Assembly: GCA_900498135.1 (NCBI GenBank)
Contig: LR026961.1
Coordinates: forward strand, 3,642,011 to 3,706,010
DNA: 64,000 nucleotides
From: an uncultured Desulfatiglans sp.
Lineage (GTDB): Bacteria; Desulfobacterota; DSM-4660; Desulfatiglandales; Desulfatiglandaceae
Direction: 5' to 3'
Shown: piece by piece, positions 21,770 through 63,862 of the stretch
Position numbering within the stretch: the first letter of the stretch is position 1
Layout of the letters: each line of letters opens with the position of its first letter
Made by a program: the position numbers and the translations under genes
The notes under the pieces: generated by a model
Told to the model about the DNA's origin: nothing
The model's input: only the letters and a program-made list of their open reading frames with translations
The model's database searches: none

Positions 21770-22510
21770 TCAGCCCCGCTGATACATCTCCATCCAGTGT
21801 CTGCGCGCAGACGAATACCAGGTCACGGGGTACCCTTCTTCTTCCCCGATCTTCACCAGCTTTTCTTCCTCCAGAGCCGCCCCGCGATAGCGGAGGCCGG
21901 CAACGAAGGAGTCTTCACCGATCCCGATCGAGGTCAGGTCCGCCATGTCCAATGTCAGGGCATGAGGGTCGATGATCTCCGTCGGCGGCAGGGAGTAGGC
22001 CGCCGTGCCTTTGGCCCAGGTGCCTGCGCTCACGGCGGTTTGATCCGGCGGATGAGGGGGAACGCCGGGAGGCTCCAGCCAGTGGAGCGGCAGCGTCCGG
22101 AGATGAAGGGCGGGCGGATCGACATCAGGGGGAGGGTCGTAGGGGACGAACTCGAAGACACAACGCTCTCCTTCATAGAATCCGATCTCGAAAAGGCCGG
22201 GCCCCTCCCTGCCTCCGCCGAAGCCGCGCAGGTGAAAGAGGTTGTCGAGTTCCCGGAAATCGCGCCATGGCAGTCCGGCTGTCTGCATGATGCGCCGCAT
22301 TGCGTCCAGGTCTTTGTACCAGAGGCGCTTGATCTCCTCGGCGCCGACATAGTTTGGAAAACGATGGAGGATCATGGCTGGAACGGCCGTGGCGTCGCGG
22401 TTTTGGACAAGATGCGCCGCGACGGCCTCCCTGGCCGCCAGAGGCAGGAGGCCGCAGACGATTTCTGCGGCGTATCCGCTGACGCGGATGCTTTTGGGGG
22501 CGTCGAGCAT
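21770..22510 (-). CDS. Hypothetical protein, 246 aa (proline-rich middle)
   Basis: Not recognised with confidence. A soluble protein starting MLDAPKSIRVSGYAAEIVCG. Features: a helical N-terminal third, LFHLRGFGGGREGPGLFEIGFY, a proline-rich stretch around residues 125-160 and HALTLDMADLTSIGIGEDSF near the C-terminus. It lies 40 bases downstream of the RND permease on the same strand and may be cotranscribed with it. No signal peptide or membrane segment. Confidence 0.65.
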   Translation of the reverse strand: MLDAPKSIRVSGYAAEIVCGLLPLAAREAVAAHLVQNRDATAVPAMILHRFPNYVGAEEIKRLWYKDLDAMRRIMQTAGLPWRDFRELDNLFHLRGFGGGREGPGLFEIGFYEGERCVFEFVPYDPPPDVDPPALHLRTLPLHWLEPPGVPPHPPDQTAVSAGTWAKGTAAYSLPPTEIIDPHALTLDMADLTSIGIGEDSFVAGLRYRGAALEEEKLVKIGEEEGYPVTWYSSARRHWMEMYQRG

Positions 22511-57047: not shown

Positions 57048-57633
57048 CCCACCCTCCTCTCATTAACTCTATGTGTTATGATTGTTTTCCCTCAATTCGA
57101 CCCTGTCCGCCAACCGGCAGGTCAAAGAGGTGCTGGCGAGTGAAATGGTGAAAAGCGGCTATTACAACGCATGTACCATAGGGGAAACAGACTTGGCTGT
57201 CAAGCTAAACACTGGTGTGATCTAGGCTGTAAAGCGTGGATCTGCGAATTTGCCCAATCGATCTTCTCAAGAGGCGCTGGCACGCAGATATGAGCATATA
57301 GCACGGAAGTTTTCGGCTGGATCCGTTCCTCGACCTTCAAGCTGGTTGTGCAGAGCGCAAGGGTCGATTGATTGCGATAGGCAAGGACGCTTTGCAAGAT
57401 GGGACCGCGAAGCTTGGAAGTGAACGCGAAAACCCATCCTGGCCAAAATTCTGCGGAGGAAGCGGACCTGACCACGTGAGGGCAAGAGTCACTTCAAACG
57501 ATGTCTTTCTTCGCAATGATGGGGCTGGAGGTCTTTGAAGGGCGCCTTAGGGGTTGCATTTTGAGGTCAAAAAAGTGCTTCTAAGCTCCTGGAAGCAACC
57601 CTTTTCCCTATGTTTTGTTTGTTTTTCAGTCAT
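57048..57633. other. Intergenic region without recognised gene
   Basis: Contains the livJ leader. At 57553-57600 GGGGTTGC and GCAACCC form an inverted repeat, possibly a terminator for the hemerythrin gene. Open frames on the minus strand at 57200-57480 have no conserved content. Confidence 0.4.
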
Positions 57634-58203
57634 TTATCTTGGTCCGACCCCGACAACGAAAGTTGCTTGCAACCGATGCAAAAGAGCATGAAACTCAGAG
57701 TGTTTGCCTTCGCCGATACGTTCCCGTTCGAGCTGCTCGAATGCTTCAAAAAGTTCTTTGTCTTTATCCGGGTCCAATTTCGCCTCCGCCATGGGGAAAA
57801 GAACCGTGTTTTCCTTGGTGATATGTTCATCGAGGAGAGCCACGTATTCTTTAATGATTGTCTGTGCTTGTTCCTTACGCAAGACGAGCCCGGACTCATG
57901 GCCGGCCAGGGCATCTTTGAGCATGGCAACCAGTCTGCGGCCCTGTTCATGTTCCAGCAGCATAACCCCGATAGGACCTCCTTCACGCAGCACACCGACA
58001 TTCTCCAAGGCTGGAAAAAGGAATTCTTCTTCCTTGGCATGATGGCATTTGTCGACGAAGACCGACAGGAACTCGAGGATGTTGGAGAGATCCTTCCCGT
58101 CCACTTCTTGACCGCGTCCGAACCTGTCCGCAACGGCCTGCAGGATTCGAAGCATGATTTCAATGCCGTGGTGTTCGTTCTTAAGTTCCTCAATCGCCTT
58201 CAT
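57634..58203 (-). CDS. Hemerythrin HHE-domain protein
   Basis: 189 residues, four-helix bundle with the iron-binding pattern LKNEHHGIE, DKCHHAKEEEFLFP, LLEHEQGRR and LDEHITKENTVLFP. Expected to bind a di-iron site for oxygen or NO sensing or iron storage. AAGGAGG eight bases upstream of ATG 58203. Confidence 0.9.
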   Translation of the reverse strand: MKAIEELKNEHHGIEIMLRILQAVADRFGRGQEVDGKDLSNILEFLSVFVDKCHHAKEEEFLFPALENVGVLREGGPIGVMLLEHEQGRRLVAMLKDALAGHESGLVLRKEQAQTIIKEYVALLDEHITKENTVLFPMAEAKLDPDKDKELFEAFEQLERERIGEGKHSEFHALLHRLQATFVVGVGPR

Positions 58204-58387: not shown

Positions 58388-59087
58388 ATGCAAAGTCCAG
58401 GGCTTTTTTTCTCCGGTGCGCAGGTGAAAGAGGAGGATACCGATCAACCTTGGGTGCCGGGACCACCGCTCTCAAGGCGCCATGTTTGCACAATTTCCAC
58501 AGCGGGGCTTCAGCGGCGAGGCGATCGGCCCTTCGAGGGGATGACCGGGGACTACCGGGTGATCCCTGGAGACATTAAAGCCGGGGATTTGGTGATGAGT
58601 CACATCTCCACCAATTATGACCGCACCGGTTTTCAGCAGGATTGGAATCTCGTTTTTCCCCTGGATCGCCTCCGTGAGCTTGATGCCGAGGGGATTATAG
58701 GCGCTGTGGCCGATTACCATTATTCTTTTATGGGAGCTGCCGATCCGGCAGAGATGGAACAGGCTGCCCGAAACTTGGCCGCACTCCTCAAAGGAGACGA
58801 TGTAGATGCAGCCCTTTTGGTGCCGGTCTGACCGTTCTGTGCGCGCTGTGGGCGCGTTGGGCCATTATCTGGAAAGCGAATTGATCCCCACCACTCAGAT
58901 CAGTCTGATCCGGGAGCACACCGAGGTCATTCGGCCGCCAAGGGCGCTCTGGGTCCCATTTTAACTTGGTCGCCCCCTGGGAGTCCCTGAAAATCCTGCC
59001 TTCCAGCGACGGGTGCTCCTCAGGACACTCGAACTAGCGAGTTCAGCCGGTGGTTTTGGCAGGAAACAGCCGCGGCCCGAATGCTGA
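58388..59087 (+). pseudogene. Selenoprotein B-like (glycine/sarcosine/betaine reductase B family), decayed
   Basis: The frame reads WVPGPPLSRRHVCTISTAGL, GDYRVIPGDIKAGDLVMSHI, FPLDRLRELDAEGIIG and DYHYSFMGAADPAEMEQAAR, the family N-terminal half, to LLVPV. Then TGA (58829-58831) sits where the family has selenocysteine before P-x-C. The homologous sequence continues (AVGALGHYLESELIPTT, ISLIREHTEVIRPPRALWVP) but two bases are missing in a GC-run near 58841-58848, so the frame changes, and TAA at 58962-58964 replaces a glutamate codon before LGRPLGVPENPAFQRR. At least the last two lesions mean it is broken, unless the sequence has errors. Confidence 0.82.
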
Positions 59088-59271
59088 GGTTGATTAAAGA
59101 AAGATGCCTGAAGAGTGGGGACCCATCCCTGAAAATGACCGGGGCCGTGTTTGTAATCCCTGTGGATCAGGGTTAAAGGAGAAAAATGGATTTTTGCTCT
59201 GTCAATACAGCCTGAAGCATTTCTCCGGCGCAGCCATCATGATGGCTGCCGAAACACATCGTGAAACCATC

Positions 59272-59497
59272 TAGATCCATCCGGAAATGATTTCGCGGTA
59301 GGACTAAGTTTCCAATCCGGAAATGAGGATTTTTCTTTACACGCTGCGCGTGCTCAGTCCCACCCCTGCGGGGCGGGTCCCGGTTTGGCCAATATCAAGG
59401 AAATTAAGCGCTTGCGCGGAGGTGACCTGCAGGTCGCCGCACAAGCAAACGTGCAGATTGACGCCGAGATTGGCCAAAAAGACCCTGTCCGGATGGA
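59272..59497 (+). repeat. Palindromic repeat, copy F, interrupted and inserted in a DUF547 gene
   Basis: Outer left arm GATCCATCCGGAAATG (59274-59289), TTTCGCGGTAGGACTAAGTT, inner left arm CCGGAAATGAGGATTTTT (59317-59334), then about 50 foreign bases, then GGCCAATATCAAGG, GGTGACCTGCAGGTCGCC and right arm GGCCAAAAAGACC..CCGGATGG ending at 59497. The foreign segment (TCTTTACACGCTGCGCGTGC..CGGTTT) is a GC-rich spacer not present in other copies. The last bases of the repeat run directly into DUF547 coding sequence. Confidence 0.88.
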
Positions 59498-59660
59498 ACT
59501 AAGCAGCATTTTCAGGTGGTATTCCGAGGACTTCAAGGATGGCATCGTCGGTTTTTTCAAACAGTATGCTGAAGGCGATCTCAGGAGCAGGCTACAAAAG
59601 CGGGGTGGAGAAATAGAGGTCGAATATCTCGACTACGACTGGTCTCTTAACGGAAAATAG
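59493..59660 (+). pseudogene. DUF547 C-terminal fragment fused to the repeat
   Basis: The frame starting in the repeat (ATG 59385, through VAAQANVQIDAEIGQKD) continues without break into ELSSIFRWYSEDFKDGIVGF, then EVEYLDYDWSLNGK, the last about 55 residues of DUF547 proteins. The N-terminal about 150 residues of that family are missing, so the gene was cut, apparently by repeat insertion. The fused 91-residue ORF (59385-59660) may still be translated. Confidence 0.75.
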
Positions 59661-59683: not shown

Positions 59684-61147
59684 ATGGCAACCTATGATTA
59701 CGACATCGGCATTATCGGCGGCGGGGCGGCGGGCCTGACTGTGGCTTCCGGGGCGGCCCAGTTGGGGGCCAGGACCCTCCTGATCGAAAAGGAAAAGGAG
59801 CTCGGCGGCGACTGTCTTCACTTCGGATGCGTCCCGAGCAAGACGCTGATCCGGACTGCTCAGGTTTATCATACCATGAAAAACGCCCAGGCCTTCGGAC
59901 TTCCGGCCATAGAAATGCCCCCGGTGGACTTCGTCAAGGTGAAAGAGAGAATCCAGTCCGTGATCGCGACCATTCAGGAACATGACTCGGAAGAGCGATT
60001 CTGCAGCCTTGGCGCCAGGGTGGAATTGGGTGAACCGGCTTTTGTGGACGAGCATAGCATTCACCTGAACGGGCAGCGCATCTCCTCAAAAAACTGGGTG
60101 ATTGCCAGCGGCTCGTCCCCGCAAATCCCTCCCATCGAGGGTTTACACAAAACGCACCATATCACCAACAAAGACATTTTCTCCCTGGATCATCTTCCGG
60201 CATCCATGATCATACTGGGCGCCGGCCCCATTGCCGCAGAGATGGCCCAGGCCTTCTGCCGACTTGGGACAAAGGTGCATGTTGTACAGCGAAGTGGTCA
60301 GATCCTAAGCAAAGAGGACAGGGACATGGCCGATGCGGTCACTCAGGTCCTGGCCGCTGAGGGAGTCATTTTTCACTTGAATGTGGCGGTTCTTGAGGTA
60401 AGAGATGCAGGTGATGGGAAAGAAGTCCGCATCCAAAATAAGGATGAAGAGGTGAGTACGCTGAAAGCTGAACAGATCCTGGTTGCCATGGGACGCTCTC
60501 CCAATCTGGAGGGGCTTCACCTGGAAGAGATCGGCATTGAATTCGACGGCAAGGGCATCAAGGTGGATAAGCGCATGCGCACCACCCAGAAACATATCTA
60601 TGCAGCGGGGGATATCACCGGGGCCTATCAGTTCACCCATGCTGCGGGTTACGAAGGCGGCATTGTGGTGAGCAACGCGATCTTTCATCTTCCCCGAAAG
60701 GCCGACTACACCTTCCTTCCCTGGTGCACCTATACCGATCCGGAACTGGCCGGCATCGGAATGAACGAAAAGGCCGCCAAAGATGCTGGCATTGAATATA
60801 CGGTGTTCACCGAAACCTTCAAGGACAACGATAGGAGCCTTGCAGAAGAAAATAAGACAGGAAAGATCAAGATGCTCCTCGATAAGAATGAAAACCCGAT
60901 CGGGGTTCAGATCCTGGGGCCTCAAGCAGGTGAGTTGCTGGGCGAGTGGGTTGCCGTCTTGAATGGCAAGGTCAAACTCTCCACCCTGGCCGCGGCGGTT
61001 CATCCCTATCCGACCCTTGGCGAAATCAACAAGCGGGTCGCAGGCGCCTACCTCTCTCCCAAGATCTTTTCCGACACGGTCAAGAAGGGACTCAAGTTCT
61101 TCTTTCATCTGAAAGGCAGGGCCTGCGGATCGGGGGAGGGGAGATGA
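59684..61147 (+). CDS. FAD/NAD(P) disulfide oxidoreductase (dihydrolipoamide dehydrogenase/mercuric reductase-like)
   Basis: 487 residues. GIIGGGAAGLTVASGAAQLG binds FAD; GGDCLHFGCVPSKTL holds the redox-active disulfide pair; MGRSPNLEG, YAAGDITGAYQFTHAAG and the C-terminal HPYPTLGE (catalytic His-Glu) complete the family. Family-typical neighbours are TVP38/TMEM64 and DUF547 genes, which are here on both sides, as fragments or intact. Not linked to pyruvate dehydrogenase genes. Function in thiol or metal redox is likely but unproven. Confidence 0.92.
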   Translation: MATYDYDIGIIGGGAAGLTVASGAAQLGARTLLIEKEKELGGDCLHFGCVPSKTLIRTAQVYHTMKNAQAFGLPAIEMPPVDFVKVKERIQSVIATIQEHDSEERFCSLGARVELGEPAFVDEHSIHLNGQRISSKNWVIASGSSPQIPPIEGLHKTHHITNKDIFSLDHLPASMIILGAGPIAAEMAQAFCRLGTKVHVVQRSGQILSKEDRDMADAVTQVLAAEGVIFHLNVAVLEVRDAGDGKEVRIQNKDEEVSTLKAEQILVAMGRSPNLEGLHLEEIGIEFDGKGIKVDKRMRTTQKHIYAAGDITGAYQFTHAAGYEGGIVVSNAIFHLPRKADYTFLPWCTYTDPELAGIGMNEKAAKDAGIEYTVFTETFKDNDRSLAEENKTGKIKMLLDKNENPIGVQILGPQAGELLGEWVAVLNGKVKLSTLAAAVHPYPTLGEINKRVAGAYLSPKIFSDTVKKGLKFFFHLKGRACGSGEGR

Positions 61148-61650: not shown

Positions 61651-62016
61651 GAAACGATTAACTGATCAGCGATTCGAACCTTGCACCTTGGTCGCCATTG
61701 GAGGCTTCGGGGGAGTTGACTGCTGGAAAACGGTTGCCCGCGCTTTTCAACCTTTACCTCAGTGAGGAGCTACCCGCCCTTGACGCTTAGGAAAAGGTGC
61801 TGCTCGATATGATGGCAGGAGATCATATGCTCCTCTGGGGACAGGATGGGGTGGAGGTTTGCCGGTCCTTTCTGAGCCCCGTCTTGGAGGGGTTTGAGGC
61901 ATGCGGCAACCGTGCGCAAAGGCTTCCTGCCCTAGAAAGCAGGAAACTGGGGTCCTGATGCGGCTAGGGAGCTTCTGAAAAGGAATGGTAGGGACGTCTC
62001 TGTGGACCATTTCTGA
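61651..62016 (+). pseudogene. zwf: Glucose-6-phosphate dehydrogenase remnant (middle deleted)
   Basis: N-terminal piece (61665-61778): RFEPCTLVAIGGFGGV then, after a frameshift, [17 protein letters not shown], matching the G6PD start [29 protein letters not shown]. From 61782 it jumps to the C-terminus: LLDMMAGDHMLLWGQDGVEV, SFLSPVLEGFEACGN and, after another frameshift, AGNWGPDAARELLKRNGRDV. About 1.2 kb of a normal gene is missing, with TAG at 61788-61790. Certain as a remnant, from the motif order. Confidence 0.8.
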
Positions 62017-62040
62017 GTTCAGTTGGAGAGGAGAAACAAA

Positions 62041-62766
62041 GTGGATGAAATACCCAGTAAAAGAACCCCGGAAAATAAAAGGCGAGCCGTTCTCAAGGCC
62101 CTTGTATTCGCAGCCTTCATCGTCGCGGCTGTTTATGTGTTGAGGTTCACACCGGTAAAAAATTTCCTCACCGCCGAAATACTTGGCCGGTTCCTGGATA
62201 GCGCGGGCATATGGGCGCCCATCGCGTACATGGCCGTCTATGCCGTCGGCGTGTGTCTGTTCCTGCCCGGCACCCTTCTCACCGGGTTGGGGGCGGCGAT
62301 CTTCGGACCCTACTGGGGCTTTCTGTATGTGTGGGTCGGGGCCATGCTGGGGGCGAGCGCGGCCTTTCTCATCGGCCGAACCCTGGGGAGGGAGTTTGCC
62401 GCATCCCTCATCGGAGACCGGTTAAAGAAATACGATGACGCCATTGAGCGGAACGGCTTTGCAACGGTACTCTACCTGCGCCTCGTCTATTTTCCATTCA
62501 CCCCCATGAATTTCGGGATGGGACTGACAAAAGTGCGTTTCTGGGACTACATCGTCGGCACGGGCCTGGGCATCATCGTCGGAACCTTTATTTTCACGTT
62601 TTTCATCGGCACATTGAAACAGGTATGGGCCTCGGGAAACTGGGGGAAACTCGTCTCCTTCAAGGTGTTCTTCTCAATCGGCCTGTTCATCTTCTCTTTC
62701 TTCATTCCGAAGATCATTAAGAAGATCAAAGGTGAAGGAAAGCATGATAAAGGATCTCCAGCATGA
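62041..62766 (+). CDS. TVP38/TMEM64 (DedA-like, SNARE-associated Golgi) membrane protein
   Basis: 241 residues from GTG 62041 (GAGAGGAG seven bases upstream). VCLFLPGTLLTGLGAAIFGPYWG and LGRTLGREFA-like, then FPFTPMNFGMGLTKVRFWDY are family signatures; about six membrane segments and a basic tail. Likely a membrane lipid-transport or permeability protein. The only intact gene between the zwf and glk remnants. Confidence 0.9.
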   Translation: MDEIPSKRTPENKRRAVLKALVFAAFIVAAVYVLRFTPVKNFLTAEILGRFLDSAGIWAPIAYMAVYAVGVCLFLPGTLLTGLGAAIFGPYWGFLYVWVGAMLGASAAFLIGRTLGREFAASLIGDRLKKYDDAIERNGFATVLYLRLVYFPFTPMNFGMGLTKVRFWDYIVGTGLGIIVGTFIFTFFIGTLKQVWASGNWGKLVSFKVFFSIGLFIFSFFIPKIIKKIKGEGKHDKGSPA

Positions 62767-62813: not shown

Positions 62814-63862
62814 ATGACAGAAGAAAAGACAAAGATAGTTCTGGCCGGCGATATCGGGGGAACCAAGGCCAACCTGGCCGTTTTAGCACTGACTCCGGTC
62901 TTCGTGCCCCCTTGGCAGAAGCGATCCTCCCAAGCGCAGATTATCCAAGCCTGGAAGTTCTTGTATAGGAATTTCTTTGCTGGTATCGAGTAAAAGTTGA
63001 ACGAGCGAGCTTTGGTGCAGCCGGCCCTGTTGTGAACGGGAAGTCAAAGATCACCCATTTGCCATGGATGATGCATGAAACCCATATCGGGAATGCTCTG
63101 GGCGTTGCTTCCGTGCGCTTGCTCAACGATCTGCTCGCTCTCGCCTATGCGGTTCCGTTTTTGACGAGAGAGGATCTGCACGTGTTGAACAAAAGGCGGA
63201 CGGTATCAGGCGGCCCGATGGCCGTAGTCGCTCCGGCCACCGGTCTTGGCGAAGCGTATCTGAGGTGGGATGGAACGACATATCGAGCCTATGCCTCGGA
63301 GGGCGGACACACTGATTTTGCACCGTCGAATGCCCTGGAGACGGGTTTGCGCCAATATCTCCTGAAGCGGTTCGAACATGTCACCTACGAACGTGTCTGC
63401 TCCGGCAGCGGCCTGGTGAACATCTATGATTGTCTGAAAGACAGCGGTTATGCTGACGAGCCCGACTAGTTGCCCAATCAGATGATTTTGGGATATGATC
63501 GCACGCCCGTTATCGTCCAGGCGGCCTTCGATAAAGAGCGGCCGTGCAGACTCTGCCAGGGCAGCCTCGAGATGTTCATATCCATTCTTGGTGCGGAGGC
63601 GGAGAACATGGCTCTAGAGGTGATAGCATCAGGCGGAGTCTACTTGGGCGGCGGGATTCCGCCTCAGATTCTATGGGCTATTGAGGACGGACCTTTTCTG
63701 GAATCCTTCGGGTGCAAGGGCCGGATGTCGGGCCACAGGGAAGATATGCCGCTCCACGTAATCCTGAATCCTAAAGCGGCACTGATGGGAGCGGCCTGCC
63801 ACGCAATGGCCAAACACCATTTTACTGAAAACAGCGAGTGGGGTCTGAAGAGGAAATTGAAG
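62814..63862 (+). pseudogene. glk: Glucokinase remnant
   Basis: Starts well (MTEEKTKIVLAGDIGGTKAN, ATG 62814, the ATP-binding loop) then shifts frame near 62890. The second frame carries LPSADYPSLE, a TAG (62966-62968), then ERASFGAAGPVVNGKSKITH, LPWMM, ALGVASVRLLNDLLALAYAV, a second TAG (63467-63469), then VYLGGGIPPQILWAIEDGPF and PLHVILNPKAALMGAA. This is a whole glucokinase-family gene with at least one frameshift and two stops. No stop separates its end from the next ORF, which is in the same frame. Confidence 0.82.

Follow-up and report, generated by a model that had tools for sequence, protein, structure and literature searches.

A TGA codon in an otherwise recognisable GrdB-like reading frame raises the question of whether a selenoprotein gene is still at work here, is being lost as its lineage abandons selenocysteine, or has already died for other reasons. 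The frame lies in a 64,000-nucleotide window of the genome of an uncultured Desulfatiglans sp., in which an earlier note described a decayed short selenoprotein at 58388–59087. Comparison with intact relatives makes it very probable that positions 58439–59176 of the forward strand are the pseudogene of a stand-alone GrdB/PrdB-like (PF07355) selenoprotein of ~405 residues that died recently. As a rule, bacterial selenoprotein loss is inferred because the gene is missing; in the window the dead gene remains legible, along with its TGA, its hairpin, its lesions and its ancestral gene block.

The pseudogene matches PF07355 (GRDB) with an E value of 3e-10, and its frame before the TGA scores 40.3 bits against a Pfam gathering cut-off of 22. 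It is the sole PF07355 match in the source genome, a single 4.80-Mb contig. Intact relatives score 34.9 and 40.4 bits against the same cut-off, which places them in the GRDB superfamily. Among NCBIfam models, the closest to the pseudogene is TIGR04483 (PrdB; residues 27–154), at 69–74 bits and far under its cut-off of 300. Thirteen intact relatives were taken from a genome collection, mostly from Dehalococcoidia/Chloroflexi MAGs with additional Deltaproteobacteria, and a search of 85 genomes of the window's order yielded five full-length copies, three in the same family (G011, G056 and G064) and two in another (G025 and G084). G011 and G025 duplicate records already among the collection loci, so that 16 distinct intact genes remain overall. 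These relatives run to ~405–418 residues, a length at odds with the short protein proposed earlier. The nearest orthologues, G056 and G064, belong to two other genera of the window's own family and are collinear with the pseudogene by blastn at ~77–78% DNA identity. Since most of the relatives come from metagenome assemblies, their taxon labels may in some cases be mistaken; one copy labelled 'Dehalococcoidales' clusters with the deltaproteobacterial copies on the tree. One Chloroflexi MAG carries the selenoprotein in two tandem copies (L042:6001–8609).

The relatives bear likenesses to two known systems. With the substrate-binding selenoprotein B of glycine/sarcosine/betaine reductase (GrdB/GrdF/GrdH; PF07355, TIGR01917/TIGR01918) they share the C-terminal PF07355 part and its UxxC motif, but the 405-residue proteins lack the N-terminal half of GrdB (~430 aa) and have a C-terminal extension of ~180 residues of their own. 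An intact relative reaches 40.8 bits against the GrdB equivalog TIGR01917 and 48.4 bits against the subfamily model TIGR01918, below the respective cut-offs of 602 and 65.45. The 26-kDa selenoprotein of D-proline reductase, PrdB (TIGR04483), is the best-matching model: all 13 tested relatives match it, and in L031 residues 33–225 cover PrdB residues 26–218 of 238 (E 3e-33), a stretch that includes the Sec. An intact 407-residue relative nevertheless scores 115 bits against the equivalog cut-off of 300 for this 238-residue model and differs from PrdB in its long C-terminal extension, and the relatives score under every curated NCBIfam cut-off. A PDB sequence search found no relative, and Foldseek, run with an AlphaFold model of an intact relative that was too weak to use (mean pLDDT 65), returned no match at E ≤ 0.001. 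At the 13 collection loci, clustering of neighbours, as distinct from a profile search of each, recognised no conserved partners of the GrdA/GrdC/GrdE or PrdA/PrdC type; the only conserved neighbours were an MFS transporter and an Lrp-type regulator, each in a few loci. Because the PrdB match lies well under the curated cut-off and the unannotated C-terminal ~180 residues of the intact relatives match nothing in Pfam or NCBIfam, the selenoprotein is named GrdB/PrdB-like and assigned, on its sequence, to neither enzyme. The 405-residue subfamily, with its unannotated C-terminal domain, is somewhat new, as is its decay seen at the level of the operon.

The TGA at 58829–58831, within PV-U-PFC, falls in the same alignment column as a TGA in the 13 collection relatives and in G056, G064 and G084. 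All 16 intact full-length genes thus have it at one same residue, within PV-U-x-x-C or a similar motif, and none has a further internal stop. A single in-frame TGA flanked by conserved sequence on both sides, the pattern taken as the ancestral state of a bacterial selenoprotein gene, is therefore found in 16/16 relatives. A second TGA in G056 and G064 was considered as a second Sec and rejected, being the natural stop. Since the TGA keeps its place throughout, the hairpin that follows it fits the bSECIS constraints and the genome encodes selenocysteine machinery, the data support the view that this lineage formerly encoded selenocysteine in a GrdB/PrdB-like enzyme, as the earlier note proposed. 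PrdB-like UxxC selenoproteins in marine surveys, filed as pfam07355, are among the most abundant selenoprotein families and include 110 Cys homologues (PMC2398784). In contrast to that set, no Cys version was found at the Sec column in the sample of 16 intact relatives.

Downstream of the TGA, where the earlier note suggested that a GCGC/GCGC pairing could form a SECIS-like stem, a SECIS-like hairpin at 58841–58857 (+ strand) has a 7-bp stem and a GUG loop at a spacing of 16 nt from the UGA. It folds at −12.9 kcal/mol, and because shuffled sequences fold equally well (z −0.27), the window hairpin alone proves nothing. The relatives are more informative. Across 45 bases counted from the TGA, the 13 collection relatives share a consensus of a 7-bp stem (columns 15–21 with 25–31) that closes, at a spacing of 18 nt from the UGA, a loop of sequence GUN (in one relative, GGU). 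The stem is paired in 89% of cells, with both-sided changes at one pair, and whole-structure pairing is 79%, falling to 32–46% in a control in which the partners were slid. Covariation is modest, and Ala-Val-Gly codons could account for part of the stem conservation. The bSECIS model calls for a loop of 3–9 nt, an upper stem of 4–16 bp, a G in the first two loop positions, a spacing of 16–37 nt and an MFE at or below −7.5 (PMC13188914); the consensus of the relatives satisfies these constraints, and the window hairpin, with its 16-nt spacing, fits them too. In the living gene, to judge from the family and the machinery, SelB and tRNA-Sec would have read the UGA, followed by its bSECIS hairpin, as the selenocysteine of a U-x-x-C redox motif.

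Several lesions separate this gene from its orthologues. The blastn alignment with G056 spans 58445–59017 at 77% identity over 575 nt, with a 2-nt gap as its sole indel. This frameshifting deletion lies within 58840–58848 and is best placed at 58840/58841, within a Thr codon found without exception in the 13 relatives compared. The two-base deletion described earlier is thus real, but it falls slightly before the GC-run to which it had been assigned, the exact base being ambiguous. A premature TAA at 58962–58964 stands where every relative has E or Q; the earlier note had it in place of a glutamate codon. At 59020–59039 the alignment with G056 and G064 leaps from reference position ~653 to 1081, marking the junction of a ~410-nt internal deletion and a second frame change. 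The tail then continues to a stop at 59174–59176, well past the end assigned before at 59087, where the internal deletion had been missed.

The other end was also misplaced. Family homology begins at ~58439, and the start codon and the native first ~24–25 codons are absent. A synteny breakpoint lies at 58434/58435: to its left, 7.5 kb are collinear with the same-genus genome G001 at 96% identity, and to its right lies the pseudogene. G001 has no selenoprotein gene, and since the sequence up to 58434 matches it, the ATG at 58388, previously taken as the start, is part of the flank. Elsewhere in the source genome, a search for part of the 14.7-kb sister-species segment gave weak paralogous and short hits only. 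Left of the breakpoint, a ~105-bp short dispersed repeat at 57547–57651 occurs twice in G001 (C39:7977–8081 and 22161–22257). Measured against intact orthologues, the gene thus carries several independent disabling lesions of the kind that define a pseudogene, namely the 5′ loss, the frameshift, the TAA and the ~410-nt deletion. By alignment, a rearrangement removed the 5′ end with the promoter region, and the other three lesions, in whatever order they came, wrecked the remainder. The earlier picture of an enzyme swapping out selenocysteine gives way to that of a finished pseudogene.

The surviving stretches still look like protein-coding sequence. Differences from G056 fall at the three codon positions as 30/25/110, with dN 0.13 and dS 1.26, the signature of long purifying selection on the protein. 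Of ~72 remaining family-invariant positions, 67 are unchanged. The window has the second-longest end branch of the tree, 0.89 where the median is 0.3, and the final piece of the pseudogene is the most diverged. The substitution pattern, the invariant positions and the branch length fit selection until fairly recently, and with constraint still visible a residual role for a fragment is conceivable.

This constraint could also be taken as a sign that the gene works and only appears broken through sequencing or assembly errors. Errors typically take such forms as a 2-nt indel next to a GC-run or a lone nonsense codon, and these two lesions, taken alone, could be errors. Base-calling error does not, however, replace a native 5′ end with a flank 96% conserved in a same-genus genome that lacks the gene, with the adjoining 7.5 kb collinear, nor does it remove ~410 nt or reduce the neighbouring HTH-MEDS, DUF547 and G6PD genes to fragments. 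These large lesions rule out sequencing error as the cause, and a working gene behind the apparent damage is scarcely credible. Nor is the 147-aa ORF at 58388–58831 at all likely to be a functional short protein terminating at the TGA. The frame is open and has an ATG, but flank sequence common to G001 and unrelated to the family makes up its first 17 codons, and it ends just before the catalytic Sec, without the remaining conserved columns of the family. For annotation, both this ORF and any 'readthrough' call at 58388–59176 would be wrong.

Dead as it appears to be, the gene sits among other casualties. Informative gene context came only from genomes of the same family. In G056, an HTH_17-MEDS regulator comes after the intact selenoprotein gene, and in G021, a genome from G056's genus, a selenoprotein remnant precedes, in this order, HTH-MEDS, DUF547, FAD oxidoreductase, a 6-phosphogluconate dehydrogenase-like gene, G6PD and VTT. 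The window keeps this order as debris, all on the + strand. The last part of the regulator, the next gene of the operon, persists at 59182–59271 (residues 195–224 of 243, 83% identical), and a DUF547 relic at 59493–59660 retains residues 243–297 of 297 (65% identical) with its stop. The FAD/NAD oxidoreductase is intact at 59684–61147 (88% to G021), as is the block's VTT-domain membrane protein at 62023–62766; between them, glucose-6-phosphate dehydrogenase survives as two small relics within 61704–61925 (residues 47–71 and 452–504 of 525). Further on, a glucokinase gene at 62826–63808 is disrupted by changes of frame and by a stop in frame at 63467–63469. Its last piece reads on, in the same frame, into the radical-SAM gene downstream; G001, the sister species, has that radical-SAM gene but no glucokinase at this place. 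Gene order and neighbour relics that match the relatives show the pseudogene to occupy its ancestral place, decayed alongside genes unrelated to selenium. In G021, the block from HTH-MEDS to VTT (L125:192–7017) is a possible redox module.

A different account is that the loss was driven by selenium, with the lineage abandoning selenocysteine and this enzyme an early casualty. The gene is dead in the window and fragmentary in two further genomes of the family, with only an N-terminal scrap in G002 and only a C-terminal scrap in G021, and the HTH-MEDS, DUF547, FAD, G6PD and VTT genes beside the G021 remnant are intact. The source genome, however, encodes SelA (625 bits), full-length SelB (387 bits), a tRNA-Sec (71.7 bits, with which ARAGORN agrees) and a SelD with its own in-frame TGA near the N-terminus (SGSG-U-ASKLPP), which together make up the host complement taken to mark a bacterial selenoprotein gene. 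SelA is above cut-off in 8/8 relatives compared, with or without the GrdB/PrdB-like gene. A lack of such machinery, which the earlier note had named as evidence against its reading, is thus not what these genomes present. With SelA, SelB, tRNA-Sec and a Sec-containing SelD in place, the Sec trait is, as far as gene content indicates, retained, and one gene is lost rather than the whole trait; of the earlier claim that the lineage used selenocysteine here and is losing it, the past use stands and the ongoing loss of Sec use does not. Since HTH-MEDS, DUF547, G6PD and glucokinase are also relics or broken, the decay is block-wise and not specific to selenium, and a selenium-driven loss is quite improbable. 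The evidence strongly favours, as a single joint reading, a recently dead gene for a ~405-residue selenoprotein that was lost through block-wise gene decay in an organism which, by its genes and presumably in activity, still makes selenocysteine. Because the G002 and G021 fragments differ, the decay was at least partly independent in the lineages concerned, although a first lesion shared by these two losses and that of the window is possible.

The locus offers a legible example of a known process, the loss of GrdB-family selenoproteins in Deltaproteobacteria. For the sisters of both Syntrophus aciditrophicus and Desulfuromonas acetoxidans, loss of GrdB has already been inferred (PMC1794560). 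Those inferences rested on a missing gene, whereas in the window the dead gene itself can be read, lesions and surroundings included. Sister genera have intact copies and the host still encodes selenocysteine, and the case shows that selenoprotein loss can be ordinary block-wise decay and not the abandonment of selenium. It is conceivable, if on the whole doubtful, that the PrdB-like subfamily follows a rule of 'selenocysteine or nothing' across Desulfobacterota and Dehalococcoidia, never converted to Cys and repeatedly lost outright where the Sec machinery stays.

A further sequence lies within the debris. Between the regulator and DUF547 relics, a dispersed element of ~223 bp (59276–59498) with terminal inverted repeats has 61 matches in the genome, ~40 of them long, from which a consensus and ends were obtained. 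It looks like a non-autonomous MITE-like family, and it has no match in Rfam. A 91-aa ORF at 59385–59660 is repeat sequence joined to the DUF547 relic. The element was considered as the cause of the break in the selenoprotein gene and dropped, as it sits 100 bp downstream between two other relics and accounts for no lesion in the gene. One end has TCCATCCGGAAATGA, mirrored at the opposite end, and the element contains strong internal hairpins. The sister species has many copies, and elsewhere in the order a core of ~105 bp recurs in further genera and families. Tandem sub-units ~142 bp apart are present in some copies.
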